DNA from: Sneathiella sp.
Lineage (GTDB): Bacteria; Pseudomonadota; Alphaproteobacteria; Sneathiellales; Sneathiellaceae
Direction of reading: 5' to 3'
Assembly: GCA_017643685.1 (NCBI GenBank)
Contig: JAEPMY010000007.1
Location: 1-55,346 of the forward strand
DNA length: 55,346 nt
Shown: positions 7,337 through 35,048 of the stretch, piece after piece
Layout of the letters: every line of letters begins with the position of its first letter
How positions within the stretch are numbered: the first letter of the stretch is position 1
Notes under the pieces: generated by a model
Databases searched by the model: none
The model's input: the letters and a program-made list of their open reading frames with translations, nothing else
Told to the model about the DNA's origin: nothing
Translations under genes and position numbers: made by a program

Positions 7337-10300
7337 TTACACCATGATGACAAAGTCATCTTCACGGATGTCATCCAGATCCGTTTTCAGAAGTGTCAGG
7401 CTGTTATCGTCATCGAACGTAATGACGAGATGCTTGCCAACTTCTTCGGCGTGATCAATGGCATATTCAACTTCTGCGGCATCGAAACCATCGATTGTGA
7501 TCCGGTCCTGACCGGATTTGAAACCTTTGATTTCATCATGTCCGGCAGTGAAGACAAACATATCCGCGCCGTTGCCGCCGTGGAGATAGTCATCCCCCTC
7601 TCCGCCTTTCAAAACGTCGGAGCCGTTACCGCCTTGAAGAACGTCAGAGCCCGCACCGCCTTCAAGCAGGTCAGAGCCATTACCACCTTTTAGCAGATCA
7701 TCTCCGTCGCCGCCTTTCAGACGGTCAGAGCCGTTACCACCGATCAGGTAATCGTCGCCATCACCCCCATCCAGAAGATCAGAGCCGTTGCCGCCTTTGA
7801 CATAATCGTCGCCCTCATTGCCGGAGAGACCATCAGAGCCGTTACCGCCATTCAGTTCGTCATCGCCGTCATTGCCTTCGACATTGTCGGAACCATTACC
7901 GCCGTTCACAACATCATCACCCTCACCGCCTGAGATTTGATCAGCACCGCCTTTACCGTCGATGTAATCATCCTCATCGCTGCCCACGATAATGTCAGAA
8001 CCATTGGTCCCATCTGGCACTTCCACGACAGGATCAGAACTTTCCTCTGCCTGCAGCTCCCGCACCAGAATGTTATCGAAGCTCACACCCTCAGTACCCC
8101 AGGAGTACAAACCGACAGTGCCTTTCTCAATGCTCCGCTCTTCGATGGCCTCAGAAAACAGGGCCATGCCATTCAGGTATGCCTGAATTTTATTGTCCTG
8201 CACCTCAACCCGAAGTTTCTGAACCTCGTTCAGGTCAAAGCCATTTCTCGTCAGCATCAGAGACTGTTCAATGCCGTCAACCAACACGGTTAGCTGCACA
8301 AAACGATCATCTGAGTCGAGCTCCAGTTTGTAGTAGTTCTTGTCATCCTGATAATTGAACAGGATACCAACACCGCCGGCTTCAACCGCTGTAAACTCGG
8401 TTTCGACAACATAGGAAGACCAATTGTAAGCATCTGCATTGTCATAAAGGGCGTATGTGCCTTTGCGCAGAACATGCCAACCATCGCCATGTGGGCTCCA
8501 GTATTTTGTCCACACGCCGCCATCTTCCGAACCCGGTGCCAACTCCCGGCTATAGGTGTCTGCAGATTGTGTCAGGCTTCCATCCGCAACGGACCAATCA
8601 GCCGCATCACCTTTTTCGCCCTCATCCACAATTGCCCAATCACTTCCAAGACTGCTGTTAAAATCATCACTCAGCAGAACTTGTTCCTGATTGAACAAAT
8701 TCACTTTCACATGATCTACATGCTGCTCACCTTCACCGTCGGTAACGACTAGTTTGACATTGTGCGTACCCGTTGGCAGTTCCACCGTCAGTTCTTTGCC
8801 TTCGCCAAGAACGTCGCCGCCCAGCATCCAGGTGTAGGAAACAATCCCTTCCTTAGAGAATGAGTTTTCAGCATTCAAAGTCACTTCAGCTTTGTGATCG
8901 CCGTCGAAATCAACGATGTCCAGATCATTACCCGCGTTCGCATGGGTAACGGCCTTATTGACTGTGATATCATCAAAAATCGTCTGATACTGACCCGCAG
9001 ACAGAAGCGCAACAGTGCCATTTGTCAACGCGTTTTCGGCATCGGAAACAGGACCTTCAAACAACGCATGCCCATCAAGGGAGACAAAAATCTGATCGCC
9101 GACAACCGCGACTTTCAGTTCCATCTCGTCATTGAAGGGATAACCACCGGCTTCACTGGCAAGAACGGTCTCTACACCGTCTTTTACCTTGATCAGGTTC
9201 CGCTCGTTAGTTGTCACATCCAATGTGACACGATAATGGTTATCTTCATCCTGATAATAAACCGCCACACCAATGGTGTCGTCGTCTTGCGACAGAACGG
9301 TTGCTTCCATCACATAATCTGACCAATTGGCGGCTTCTTCGGCATTCCACACCATAACCGCATTGCCATCAGAATATTCGTAAAGGGCACCTTCTACTGC
9401 TGGCAGGTCCGGATCATCCTCATCCTCGCGGCTGGCAACCGACCCTTTTACTTTCCATGTGGCACGGGCGTCAGAAGTTGTCAGATCAATAACACCCAGC
9501 TCACCGCCACCGAATGTCGCTTCAAACCCGGTATCAAAATCGAACTGGATAGCGCGATCACCCGCTTCTTCTGCTGTCAGAATGCCATCGGGATCAACAC
9601 CGCCCAGCTCAGCGATTTTCTCTTCGCTTAATGTCTCTCCCGTGAAAAGGAAGCTGTTCATCAAGCCATTGAAAATTTCACCCCCATCATCGGTTAGGAT
9701 CAGGAAGCCGGTTTCAGGGTCGATACCAAAGCGCCCTGCATCCACATCCTGCTCACCCACTTTCACACCATCGATGAATTTCTTCATCAGCAGCTTGCCG
9801 CCTTCAACTTCTTCAAAGCTGAAAGCAACCCGGTGCCATGTGTCAAAGGAGAAATCACCTTCATACTGGCCGGAGATACCAATGCCATCGCCCACACGGA
9901 AGAAGGCGTCCGCATCGCTGACATTGTTGATATCTGTCTGGAAAAAGGCACCGTAGGAACCATCCTGAGCCGGGAACAGAATATCGAACATCATCGTGTA
10001 ATTCAGGAATTTGTCACCGCTTTCCGGCTCGAAATCCAGTTCTACATGATATCCCTGATTTTTAGTGGAACGCGGGAAGCTGACGACAACCGCATCACCG
10101 CCCGGAATTGCTGGCGCCTCAAAATCAGTTGGCAGACCCAACGCAATTTGCTCATCCAGCGGGGTTTCGGAAACCTGATTGCGATCTTGCCAACCGTCGA
10201 AATCACCATCATTAAAGTTATCGAGGAGCAACGTATCCTCGGTCTCCACAATGATGCGGATATCGTCGCTATTCTCCACACCGTTTACATCTGTTGTCAC

Positions 10301-12741: not shown

Positions 12742-15700
12742 TTATGCGATGAGTTGGAAATCATCCTCGTTCAGATCATCGGCATCTGTACGGTTGAAGG
12801 TGAGAATATCGCCGTTCACCTCATCCAAAGTGATGATCAGACGATTACCGTTTTCAACCGCATTATCGATCGCATGTTCAACGGTTGTTGCATCATAGCC
12901 TTTGATGGTGATCGTATCGATACCAGGCTGATAATCCCGGATCAGGTCCGAACCATCTCCCATATTGAAGATGAAATTATCTTCACCGGCACCACCGCGA
13001 AGGACATCATCTCCCTCACCGCCTTCAAGGACATCATCACCGAAGGAGCCGCGAAGGTCATCAGCCCCCTCACCACCCATCAGCATATCATCTCCGAAGC
13101 CACCGCGGATCAGATCATCACCAGCGCCACCATTCAGCATATCATCACCGAAACTACCGCGAAGGTGATCGTCACCATTGCCGCCATTGATGAGGTCATC
13201 CCCAAATCCGCCGTGAAGATCATCGTCACCTTCAGCGCCGTTCAGCAAATCGTCACCGAAGTTACCGCGAAGGTTATCATCACCCTCACCGCCTTCGATT
13301 TGATCATCACCACGACGACCTTTAATGTCATCATCACCGTCAAGGCCTTTGATCAGATCGTCATCTCTTGTGCCTTGGATGTTATCATCATCGTCAGTAC
13401 CTAAGATGGCGTCCTCATCTTCCAGCCCTTCCAGAACTGTATCATCACGATACATGACATTCTGAATGCGGGTGTCTTCTGATGGATCTGTTTCTTCCTC
13501 GTCAAAGGCTTCTTCAGAGTAGTTATCCAGAAGATACTCAGCCAGGGCATCCTGCTCGGAGCCGGCATCCGCAAATGTTGCGTCACCGTCATCCAGCAGT
13601 CCGTCATCTGTCAGGTCCACGCGGTTGGCAAAAGCCGGATCTGCATCGATGAAGTCTTGGAATGGATAACCATCCCCGCCACTCGCCAGGAAGTTCAGGG
13701 TTACAATCCGGATATTCCGGCCTGCATCAACCACATCCCCGTCCATGACCAGCGCCTCAGTCGGATTACCATCATCGTCGATCAGCGCCGCGCTCATAAT
13801 GCGAGAGCCAACTTCCTGTGATGGATCAAAGCTGAAGGAGATACCACCGAACTGACCAAACTGACCCGGTGTTGATCCAGGGGCCACACCGGCAACTGAA
13901 TGCTCAAGCACTTGCAGGAGCTGCTCAGATGTCAGTGTCAGAACGGTCAGACCATTGTTGAAGCGAAGCGAGTTTGCGATATCAAGCTGAGAGATATCCC
14001 CTGCTTCTTTGCCTGCCTCTTCATTGGCTTGCGGCGGCAGGAAGTTACCATCCTGATCCACTTCACCAATTGGGGCCCGAATACCACCACCGTTTTTGAT
14101 CGAAACCTCGACGGTGTTGTCATATTCCTGTGCGGCAGCAAGGTTCGCATCCGCAGACAGGTTACCAAAGTTGGTTTCCTCCGTGCGGACCTCTGTCCGG
14201 CGACCATCAAGGAAGACGTCTGTCTTACCAAAGACGTTACCGTCCTGCTCCAACACGATGCCGGAGACAACTTCAACCATATCCTCTACCAGATCACCTT
14301 TGGTGCCTTCTGCAAAAGCGTCTTCCTCACCCCAGAGCTCTTCAACAGTTTCGTCATCAGTTGCGAAGATACCGGAGACATCTTCGTCTGTTGCCTTACC
14401 ATTTTCATCCAGAATGATTTTGCCGTCTTCGTCAAAGTCTACGACCAGACGACCGACATAGGAATATTCCCCATCAGTAGACACAATCACAACCGGATCA
14501 CCGTCTGCGTTTGTGGTATGGATTGGATAATCAGCTGCTGGTGTATCCCCTGGGTTCAGCCCCCGATCAACATCTTCCTGATCTGCAAGGATGGTATCAG
14601 AACCACCTGCGATGATCACATCGACACCTTTCAGAAGGCCTGCCAGTTCCTGCTCCAGCGCAATTTGCTGAAGATGGCTTACCAGCATGATCTTATTAAT
14701 GCCGTTATTAAGCATCTGATCAATCACTGGCTGGAGAACCGCAGCAAGCGCAGACATGTTGTTGCTTGTCTCACCGACAACCTCTGTATCCCCTGGAGAG
14801 GAAATAGAAGCCAGAAGCGGTGTTGTTGCTCCAATAATACCAATCTGCTCACCGCCCTGCTCAACGATCGTCGCTGGCGCAATTTTCGGAATATTTCCAT
14901 CACCGGCGAGACTTTGTTCTGGGCCTGTCTGGAATTCTGTGTTGAGCAGAATATCACTGGTGTACAGGCTGCTGAGATCCGCATCATTGGAGAAATCCAG
15001 ATTTGCAGACAGATATGGGAACTGAGCCCCAATCCAGCGATCATCGGCAAGGCCGTCACCGCGGAAATCTTCCCCGATGACAGAGCTCAGGAAGTCTGTC
15101 CCCAGATCAAACTCATGGTTCCCCAGCGCAGACGCATCAAACCCGATCACATTCATGATCGAGATATCAAGACGTCCCCCACCTTCATGCAGTCCCGCAT
15201 AAGCGTCTTCCAGATCACCCGGCAGGCCGTAAAGTTCGTTGTAAACGTCGTTAAAGATACCTTCGTCGCGGAAGATACGGTCACTTGCCGCATTCAGGAA
15301 TGGACCCGGAAGATAGTTATCACCTGCAGACAGAACCAGTGTGTTCTCGTAAGTGTCTTCCAGAACATCAACAATCGCCGCAAAGTTTGGCGCACTGTCG
15401 ATGGCTTCCACACCGCCTTCAAGGTCAGAGGCATGTAGGATCTGCAATGTGAAGGCAGGTTCTTCACCTGTATTCCCATCATCATCCAGATCAATCTGCC
15501 ACAATGTTGTGGTGCCGCTTTCCTCGTTGGCGATGGCCAGCATTGGCTCCCCATTCGGGCTATCCTCTGCTGCGATAAAGGCAAGGCCTTCAGGCGCGAT
15601 ATCCTGAATGTTGCCGCTTACCTCACTACCGCCTACATTGCGCATATTTACATATGTCACAAATTCAGCATTTTGCGGGTCTGTGATGTTGTAGACCATG

Positions 15701-32462: not shown

Positions 32463-32881
32463 CAAGTTCAGGGAAGAAGGATGCAGGGCTAGCTGAAAAT
32501 CCAGGACCTGAAGAAATTGATGTTTATGTAGGTAACAGGCTCCGGAAACGTCGCACCTTAATGGGACTTAGCCAGACTGAATTGGCTGAAAAGGTGGGCG
32601 TGACTTTTCAACAGCTTCAAAAATATGAACAAGGTCTCAACCGTATCGGTTCGAGCCGCCTGTTCACTATTGCGCTCGCCCTTGATACCGACATTACTTA
32701 TTTTTTCGAGGGCATACGGGATCAAGAAAACCCTGATCCGCCGTCAGAAAACCCTAAATTTGACCCTACCATGACCCGCGAAACACTGGAGCTTGTCCGC
32801 GCGTTTGAGCGGATCAAGGACAAAAGCACCCGCAGCATGATCATGGAAATGATCAAGTCAATTCTAAATACTCAAGATTAA
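32459..32881 (+). CDS. XRE-family helix-turn-helix regulator (PraR-like)
   Basis: The 140-residue protein has one Cro/CI helix-turn-helix at about 22-76 (VGNRLRKRRTLMGLSQTELA, VTFQQLQKYEQGLNRIGSSR) and a helical C-terminal extension with RETLELVRAFERI. The layout and the motif FQQLQKYEQGLNRI match the PraR-type regulators common in rhizobia and relatives, which control attachment and quorum-related genes. Whether it has that role here is unknown. A strong GGGAGG lies upstream, together with a mini-ORF. Confidence 0.9.
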   Translation: MTSSGKKDAGLAENPGPEEIDVYVGNRLRKRRTLMGLSQTELAEKVGVTFQQLQKYEQGLNRIGSSRLFTIALALDTDITYFFEGIRDQENPDPPSENPKFDPTMTRETLELVRAFERIKDKSTRSMIMEMIKSILNTQD

Positions 32882-32890
32882 CCGGCTGAC

Positions 32891-33436
32891 TTAAAACGCT
32901 TTTTGCGGCGCAACCCCGTACATAAATGTATGCCATGCGATTTGCAGTGCATCCCGCTCCGCCACAACGCCGCGATATCTCGTATTCGCCGCGGTAATGA
33001 TAATATAATCAAAAAAACTTGCGACCCAGCCAGAAGGTAAATCCGCCTTCACCTCTCCGCGCTCTTGTGCCTTCACAACTAACTGCTCGACCTTATCCAG
33101 CTGCTTTAAGAACGCTTTGCGGTTCTGATCCTCTTCGTCGATCATAGTTCGCATCCAGAAATAATAGTGATGCCGAACGCGATAATACTCTCGCATAATC
33201 TTGAAAAACTTATCCATCGGCGGCTTTTTTCCGCTCATGGCCCGGCGGATAATATGGCCAAAGATCTTCAGGCTATGACGTGCGGCAGCCTCTTTCAGCT
33301 TCTGCTTACCACCGAATTTTCTATTAATGGTGATACGTGTAACGCCAGCACGGTCCGCGATGTCTTCCATCGTTGCCTCCGGCTTGTACGCCAGAACAAA
33401 TATTGTCGCTTCCAGAATTTCTGTGTCCGTTACCAA
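32891..33436 (-). CDS. TetR-family transcriptional regulator with repeat-disrupted start
   Basis: From a TTG at 33436 the protein has 181 residues: a TetR helix-turn-helix at about 5-50 (MEDIADRAGVTRITINRKFG) and a helical ligand/dimer domain. The natural start seems to be the ATG at 33493, which would give MVTDTEILEAT in a single-copy allele. Four perfect 19-bp repeats now lie between that ATG and the body of the gene; ATG-initiated translation meets TAA at 33451-33449 after 14 codons. Each repeat carries TTG followed by VTDTE, so initiation at the TTG of the last repeat would give the same N terminus. Expression is probably weak. No ligand or target is known. Confidence 0.82.
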   Translation of the reverse strand: MVTDTEILEATIFVLAYKPEATMEDIADRAGVTRITINRKFGGKQKLKEAAARHSLKIFGHIIRRAMSGKKPPMDKFFKIMREYYRVRHHYYFWMRTMIDEEDQNRKAFLKQLDKVEQLVVKAQERGEVKADLPSGWVASFFDYIIITAANTRYRGVVAERDALQIAWHTFMYGVAPQKAF

Positions 33437-33491
33437 TTTCTGTGTCCGTTACCAATTTCTGTGTCCGTTACCAATTTCTGTGTCCGTTACC
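33416..33491. repeat. Four perfect 19-bp tandem repeats over the TetR start
   Basis: The unit AATTTCTGTGTCCGTTACC occurs at 33416-33434, 33435-33453, 33454-33472 and 33473-33491 without a mismatch. The unit length is not a multiple of three, and the array abuts the likely ancestral ATG of the TetR gene. Confidence 0.97.
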
Positions 33492-33752
33492 ATATGGTTT
33501 AATGTCGCTACTCATTATTGCCTTAGGGATATTATAAACCAAAATATTCAACCAATACTCACATTATCATTATTAAATAAGTGGAAGACTTATCCCTATT
33601 CGGCTTATTGACTAGACAGAAACTATTGTGATTTTGCCCGCTGTCTGCTAGTGAACGCGCATCATTTATCTGCTGACGCGCTTCTGACCGTTTCGGCAGC
33701 TCCATTTCGTCGCGCAAATACGCTTTGTCGCACAGATTATAGGTGAAAGACC

Positions 33753-35048
33753 ATGATACCCCGTTATGCCCGCCCCGAGATGACTGCGATTTGGGAACCA
33801 GAAAGCAAATTTAAAATCTGGTTTGAAATTGAGGCGCACGCCTGCGACGCACAAGCTGAGCTCGGTGTTATTCCAAAAGAAGCTGCAAAAGCTGTTTGGG
33901 AGCGGGGAAATTTTGAAATTGACCGTATCGACGAAATTGAGCGCGAAACCAAACATGACGTCATCGCCTTCCTGACAAACCTGCAGGAATATGTCGGTGA
34001 TGAAGCCCGTTTCGTTCATCAGGGCATGACATCCTCTGACGTTCTTGACACATGCTTGAATGTTCAGCTGACCAAAGCTGCGGATATCCTCCTGAAAGAT
34101 ATGGATGATCTGCTGGCAGCATTGAAGAAAAAAGCACATGAGCACAAAGATGACGTCTGTGTCGGTCGCTCCCACGGTATTCACGCTGAGCCTGTGACAT
34201 TTGGCCTGAAAATGGCGCAAGCCTATGCCGAGTTTGACCGGAACCGTAAACGCCTTGAAATGGCCCGTGAAGAAATTGCAACCTGCGCCATCTCTGGCGC
34301 GGTTGGTACCTTTGCCAATATCGACCCGTATGTAGAAGAGCATGTGGCAAAAGCCCTTGGTCTGCAGGCTGAGACAATTTCCACCCAGGTGATCCCACGT
34401 GACCGTCACGCAATGTTCTTTGCTGTACTTGGTGTGATCGCAAGCTCTATTGAGCGCATCGCGGTTGAAATTCGCCATCTACAACGGACAGAGGTTCTGG
34501 AAGCTGAAGAGTATTTCTCTCCAGGTCAGAAGGGCTCCTCCGCAATGCCACATAAACGGAACCCTGTTTTGACAGAAAACCTCACAGGTCTTGCCCGTCT
34601 GGTCCGTATGGCAGTGACACCAGCGATGGAAAATGTCGCCCTTTGGCATGAACGGGATATCTCCCATTCCTCCGTTGAGCGCGGCATTGGCCCGGATGCA
34701 ACCATTACACTTGATTTTGCCTTGGCCCGCCTGACCGGTGTTATTGAAAAGCTGGTTGTTTATCCGCAAAACATGCTCGACAACATGAACAAGCTGGGTG
34801 GTCTGATCCATTCACAGCGGGTTCTACTGGCTCTCACACAGGCGGGTGTTAGCCGTGAAGACGCCTATCGTCTGGTTCAGCGAAACGCCATGGTGGTCTG
34901 GAGAGAGCGTGAAGATTTCATGACGCTTCTGAAAAATGATGAGGAAGTCTCCGCGGCGCTCTCTGATGAGCAGATTGAGAGCGTGTTTGATCTAGAATAC
35001 CACACCAAACATGTGGACACTCTGTTCAAACGGGTCTTCGGCGAATAA
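33753..35048 (+). CDS. purB: Adenylosuccinate lyase
   Basis: The 431-residue enzyme has the fumarase/aspartase-superfamily signature GSSAMPHKRNPVLTENL with the mobile catalytic loop. Upstream it has TSSDVLDTCLNVQ and GRSHGIHAEP. It removes fumarate from SAICAR and from adenylosuccinate. The start is preceded by AGGTGAAAG. It stands alone with its own terminator, separate from the purC-SQL genes about 4 kb away. Confidence 0.97.
   Translation: MIPRYARPEMTAIWEPESKFKIWFEIEAHACDAQAELGVIPKEAAKAVWERGNFEIDRIDEIERETKHDVIAFLTNLQEYVGDEARFVHQGMTSSDVLDTCLNVQLTKAADILLKDMDDLLAALKKKAHEHKDDVCVGRSHGIHAEPVTFGLKMAQAYAEFDRNRKRLEMAREEIATCAISGAVGTFANIDPYVEEHVAKALGLQAETISTQVIPRDRHAMFFAVLGVIASSIERIAVEIRHLQRTEVLEAEEYFSPGQKGSSAMPHKRNPVLTENLTGLARLVRMAVTPAMENVALWHERDISHSSVERGIGPDATITLDFALARLTGVIEKLVVYPQNMLDNMNKLGGLIHSQRVLLALTQAGVSREDAYRLVQRNAMVVWREREDFMTLLKNDEEVSAALSDEQIESVFDLEYHTKHVDTLFKRVFGE

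Follow-up and report, generated by a model that had tools for sequence, protein, structure and literature searches.

The start of a TetR-family regulator gene in this Sneathiella genome has been rebuilt by a tandem array of four perfect 19-bp repeats, each a copy of the gene's own first codons. The analysis covers a stretch of 55,346 nucleotides, referred to here as the window, and the array occupies 77 bp on its minus strand (33416..33492). An expansion from one copy to four has probably moved the working start of the gene from its ancestral ATG to TTG 33436 in the last unit; the same protein would then be made at a lower or retuned level, and slippage would tune its amount. Judged from the sequence, the array is best labeled a recent tandem expansion across the start codon, one that leaves the protein as it was and probably alters its dose.

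The anatomy of the array is simple. TRF reports a period of 19, 4.1 copies, 100% matches and 0 indels for 33416-33492, and the sequence resolves this tract into four head-to-tail units plus one base. Read on the minus strand, the first unit opens inside the ATG at 33493-33491 and includes its TG. A T precedes each unit junction, and each added copy remakes an NTG start codon with the same codons after it. An array produced by chance can be regarded as excluded, with 57 further bases matching exactly. No other array with a unit longer than 6 bp and at least three perfect copies was found by TRF in 41 stretches of the assembly, a survey of 575,011 bases that includes the window and amounts to ~17% of the 3,432,384-base assembly. 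A search of the same genome for the unit, with up to three mismatches allowed, returned the four sites in the window and three scattered sites, all at three mismatches; the reversed control at the same threshold also gave three. A phage or other mobile element as the source of the unit was considered and set aside, given that near copies in the genome are found at control level only and that the unit plus GG has no exact match in viral contigs.

The consequences of copy number were followed by scripting the reading frames for one to seven copies of the unit. With a single copy, the ATG opens the 181-aa TetR protein; with two, it opens a 43-codon ORF that is out of frame; and with three or more, up to the seven counted, it opens an ORF of 14 codons. 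The start codon of the last unit opens an identical 181-aa frame at every copy number from one to seven. With the four copies found in the window, the ATG (33491..33493, minus strand) now heads an ORF of 14 codons, stopped by TAA 33451-33449 at 12 nt before TTG 33436. The TTG of unit 2 (33472..33474, minus strand) opens another 14-codon ORF, which ends at TAA 33432-33430 and overlaps the frame of the last TTG by 7 nt, and the TTG of unit 3 (33453..33455, minus strand) opens a 43-codon ORF running out of frame into the gene body. Only the TTG of unit 4 (33434..33436, minus strand) among the four array starts gives the full 181-aa TetR protein, and it is the predicted present start. A possible extra decoy ORF of 15 codons begins upstream at ATG 33515 (33468..33515, minus strand), with AAGG ahead of it, and enters the array in another frame. 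An N-terminal extension of the protein across the array was considered and rejected: frames opened at the first two starts are closed by a TAA before the array ends, and that of the third start does not match the frame of the gene.

None of the copy numbers counted alters the encoded protein, because every junction recreates an NTG followed by the same codons. Extra copies by themselves would not remove the TetR protein, since the TTG of the last unit is always in frame. By this frame count, all that should vary with copy number is the start codon, TTG in place of ATG, and the set of short decoy frames ahead of it. A preliminary description of the locus had placed four perfect 19-bp copies between the ATG and the gene body, as TRF and the sequence bear out. 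It had also reasoned that one copy leaves the ATG in frame, two shift the frame and three or four bring in a TAA, with the 14-codon ATG frame ending 12 nt upstream of the last TTG; the frame count reproduces the first part and the sequence the second. Its suggestion that the last TTG could start an identical protein holds as well, the same 181-aa frame being recovered there.

Comparison with relatives gives the array a direction. Full relatives of the protein are found in seven of the 23 other genomes of the genus, 15 have no match at an E value of 0.001, and one (G004) has only the C-terminal 62 aa, cut off by the end of a contig; this piece was left out of the orthologue count with its N terminus out of view; a second match in G004 is weak. 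A search of 25 genomes of the order, including the window's own, returned the same set of holders. More distant matches (G028, G036, G038, G046 and G051; 25-47% identity, covering the query in part or in full) were left out, and two weak Cryobacterium matches from a scan of a wider genome collection, which may omit near records, were set aside. The seven orthologues are 48-74% identical to the TetR protein of the window in the genome search and 49-73% in a second comparison, with G015 the closest (74% in the search). All seven have a readable start, none carries the array, and TRF found no comparable array in their start regions. In each, the homologous codons occur just once, immediately ahead of the helix-turn-helix and before a conserved I-[LI]-E-A. 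The N termini read MVTDTEILEAT in the window, MVTERDILEAT in G015, MVTDNEIIEAV in G009 and MVTDEDIIEAT in G012, and a start of the form M[VAI][TS] is found in six of the seven. An ATG stands at the position of the window's ATG in the same number, six of seven; in G005 the likely ATG is two codons earlier.

By parsimony, one copy is the ancestral state. The expansion from one to four copies appears to be recent, dating from after the split from G015, rather than ancestral, because the seven orthologues each hold a single copy and also because all copies in the window are perfectly identical. Both the native status of ATG 33493, which the preliminary description had called likely and its shared position makes very likely, and the recent expansion it had proposed are thus upheld. 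An orthologue with an N terminus encoded across the repeats, which would speak against that description, was looked for and not found: the N termini of the orthologues are encoded by a single copy. Two small similarities were seen among the relatives. In G005 (L006 ~1459-1477), an imperfect 10-bp near-doubling with two ATGs lies across the start (1.9 copies, 88%, score 31); it falls short of what would qualify as an array and is near chance level. In G015 (L003), TTGGTAACGG lies ~100 nt upstream of the ATG and shares ten bases with the repeat junction, which may be chance.

Behind the array, the 181-aa frame of the gene (32891..33436, minus strand) is intact, as supported by Pfam and the orthologues, and the N-terminal TetR helix-turn-helix is recognized by PF00440 at 30.5 bits against a cut-off of 24. 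The C-terminal TetR_C models score 13.6-13.7 bits, below their cut-off of 27. Codon-position counts were used to gauge divergence because the NG86 synonymous distance is saturated for five of six pairs, among which G005 is not included. Over 174 codons, the gene body differs from that of G015 at 42, 22 and 115 first, second and third codon positions, respectively, so that the divergence falls mostly on third positions. That the gene body is intact says little about use of the gene after the expansion, because the array is so young.

How well the protein is made from its predicted new start would depend on initiation. Anti-Shine-Dalgarno pairing is weak, at -2.2 kcal/mol for the ATG and -3.2 for the three TTGs, by a crude measure that assumes a canonical 16S tail. 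The same pairing in six relatives (without G005) lies between +0.9 and -0.9 in five and reaches -6.2 in G019. Since none of these four codons pairs well, TTG 33436 is at no disadvantage to the ATG on this count. Translation generally starts less efficiently at TTG than at ATG, and from this weakness a lower expression than in the one-copy form would be expected; expression may even be close to nil.

The four-copy array also places upstream stops where they overlap or lie very near a downstream start (the 7-nt overlap and the 12-nt gap). In this it is like termination–reinitiation coupling, in which the stop codon overlaps or just precedes the downstream start (PMC10666635). It is unlike such coupling in that the upstream ORFs are 14-codon decoys made by the repeat, and any coupling between them and TetR would be putative. 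The E. coli reporter results of PMC10666635 describe reinitiation as strongly distance-dependent: even a +2-nt distance lowers it by 5, 20 and 70% in three gene pairs, it is almost abolished at ~20 nt, and at 38 nt the loss is 80-90% or complete. Because reinitiation falls so steeply with distance in E. coli, the 7-nt overlap of the ORF from TTG 33474 would on paper serve reinitiation better than the 12-nt gap, and the gap may support little of it. The earlier proposal that the last TTG is reached by reinitiation is possible from the spacing of stop and start; the on/off switch under which it was presented is not supported as a switch of frame.

Taken together, the favored mechanism begins with tandem expansion of the first codons, from one to four copies, in a lineage-restricted TetR-family gene. 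The working start would have shifted from ATG 33493 to TTG 33436, with short decoy frames now preceding it. TetR would still be produced, with TTG 33436 as its main start, whether ribosomes initiate there directly or reinitiate once they have left the short frames, and its amount would be reduced or retuned relative to the one-copy form. Further slippage would change the copy number and in this way tune the amount, with no switching of the frame. A more ambitious extension, offered tentatively and rather improbable as it stands, is a self-restoring start array: a unit that brings its own start codon, so that copy number would set the decoy starts and stops ahead of the true start and tune expression stepwise. 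Among the matches listed for exact terms in the open-licence literature, there was no self-restoring repeat carrying its own start codon in bacteria, which is weak evidence. If copy number varies, the array would offer a simple, reversible tuning of regulator dose with the protein unchanged, and would clearly test what decoy starts and the distance for reinitiation do to expression. More generally, a gene can survive a tandem duplication that begins within an NTG codon, which surveys counting only the frame of the first ATG would miss.

The surroundings of the gene show how it is distributed. The divergent neighbor that anchors synteny (33753..35048, plus strand) is taken to be purB, encoding adenylosuccinate lyase; the names radC and xre used below are likewise assumed from the look of the proteins. 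The tetR gene lies divergently beside purB, with radC on its other side, in all seven orthologue loci, and an xre-like gene lies between, as in the window, in three of them (G015, G006 and G017). A match to the start of purB was found in 21 of 24 genus genomes, and among these 21 loci tetR adjoins purB in eight, the window's included, and is absent from 13. In 12 of the 13 loci without tetR, radC adjoins purB; in the remaining one (G011; L031 1-1191), a long glycine-rich frame is divergent from purB. Holders of tetR cluster on a tree of the purB protein, with three label changes, where shuffling gave a mean of 6.6 and three of 500 shuffles went as low. The tree has strong support on just one of its 18 inner branches, and a single gain or loss does not follow from it.

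This distribution bears on an unlikely but credible alternative, in which a chance expansion lowered or ended expression of the regulator in this strain and copy number has no regulatory role. In its favor, members of the genus can do without the gene, which is lacking next to purB at 13 of the 21 loci, and one genome alone shows the array (none of seven orthologues). Such a loss sits poorly with a frame that is intact from TTG 33436. The eight clustering genomes have, moreover, kept tetR beside purB despite strong protein divergence, which suggests that it is useful there.

A phase-variable switch is doubtful. It would be ON through the ATG with one copy and OFF with more, the TTGs being too weak, and slippage or recombination would restore the single copy. 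The arithmetic of the ATG frame agrees with this, and perfect repeat copies are good substrates for contraction. The anatomy is also that of contingency loci in Haemophilus, Neisseria and Campylobacter: TRF finds a perfect tandem repeat in the coding region, it sits on the gene start, its unit is not divisible by three, and the frame of the ATG changes with copy number. The array differs from those loci in having a 19-bp unit in four copies, whereas contingency-locus units are usually 1-5 nt and rarely 6-9 nt (PMC4692102). The start codon also lies inside the unit, so that the protein frame is restored. Compared at the sequence level, the array appears to resemble contingency loci in anatomy without two of their features. 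The product does not go in and out of frame with copy number, only the ATG-read frame being lost across one to seven copies, while the last TTG stays in frame throughout. Retention of the tract in orthologues, which is usual for contingency loci although not strictly defining, is seen in none of seven; the array is not a conserved switch for that reason, nor does anything point to a switch being maintained. On/off control or tuning by copy number, as the preliminary description had it, thus survives as possible tuning of initiation and is not supported as a frame switch. The PenA beta-lactamase provides a further parallel for reversal, as a short tandem duplication inside a coding region that is reversible in principle; PMC4169377 describes de novo tandem duplications in a beta-lactamase gene that revert under selection. 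The PenA duplication changes the protein and was shown by selection (PMC4169377), whereas the window array leaves the protein unchanged and is at most a candidate for reversion.

An assembly error, with a true copy number other than four or no array at all, is very unlikely. The assembly is a draft of 186 contigs, and short tandem arrays can be miscounted, but the 77 bp are shorter than a usual short read, the sequence is clean in every copy and on either side of the array, and the unit corresponds to the N terminus of the gene itself. A DNA element such as an iteron-like binding array or autoregulatory operator, suggested by the ability of spacerless direct 19-mer repeats to bind proteins and by the position of the array over the gene start, can scarcely be entertained for a unit that is the gene's own coding sequence, has a single homologue in orthologues, is no commoner in near copies elsewhere in the genome than its control and, with two added bases, lacks an exact match in viral contigs.

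A scan of 32850-33800 for promoters and terminators called none. Upstream of purB, a GACTAGCAGAGA...AAATCTCAAC element (minus-strand reading, with close forms) lies at 33626-33654 of the plus strand. It is spaced like a promoter, with TTGTGA and TAGTGA separated by 17 nt, although the second hexamer is poor and the scan did not call it. The element is recognizable by eye in all 21 printed purB loci of the genus, with or without tetR. Its candidacy as a TetR operator was rejected on these grounds, and it is no evidence for TetR control of purB because it is also present in loci that lack tetR.

TRF also showed other repeats. Imperfect 27/54/108-bp tandem repeats lie at 7568-7789 and 12991-13363 of the window and are, by their look, presumably glycine/aspartate-rich calcium-binding repeats of the RTX type. 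At the very end of a contig (G000 contig C30; L077 1-127), ~21 copies of AGCCAG match at 98%; this may be a variable hexamer tract at which the assembly was interrupted.
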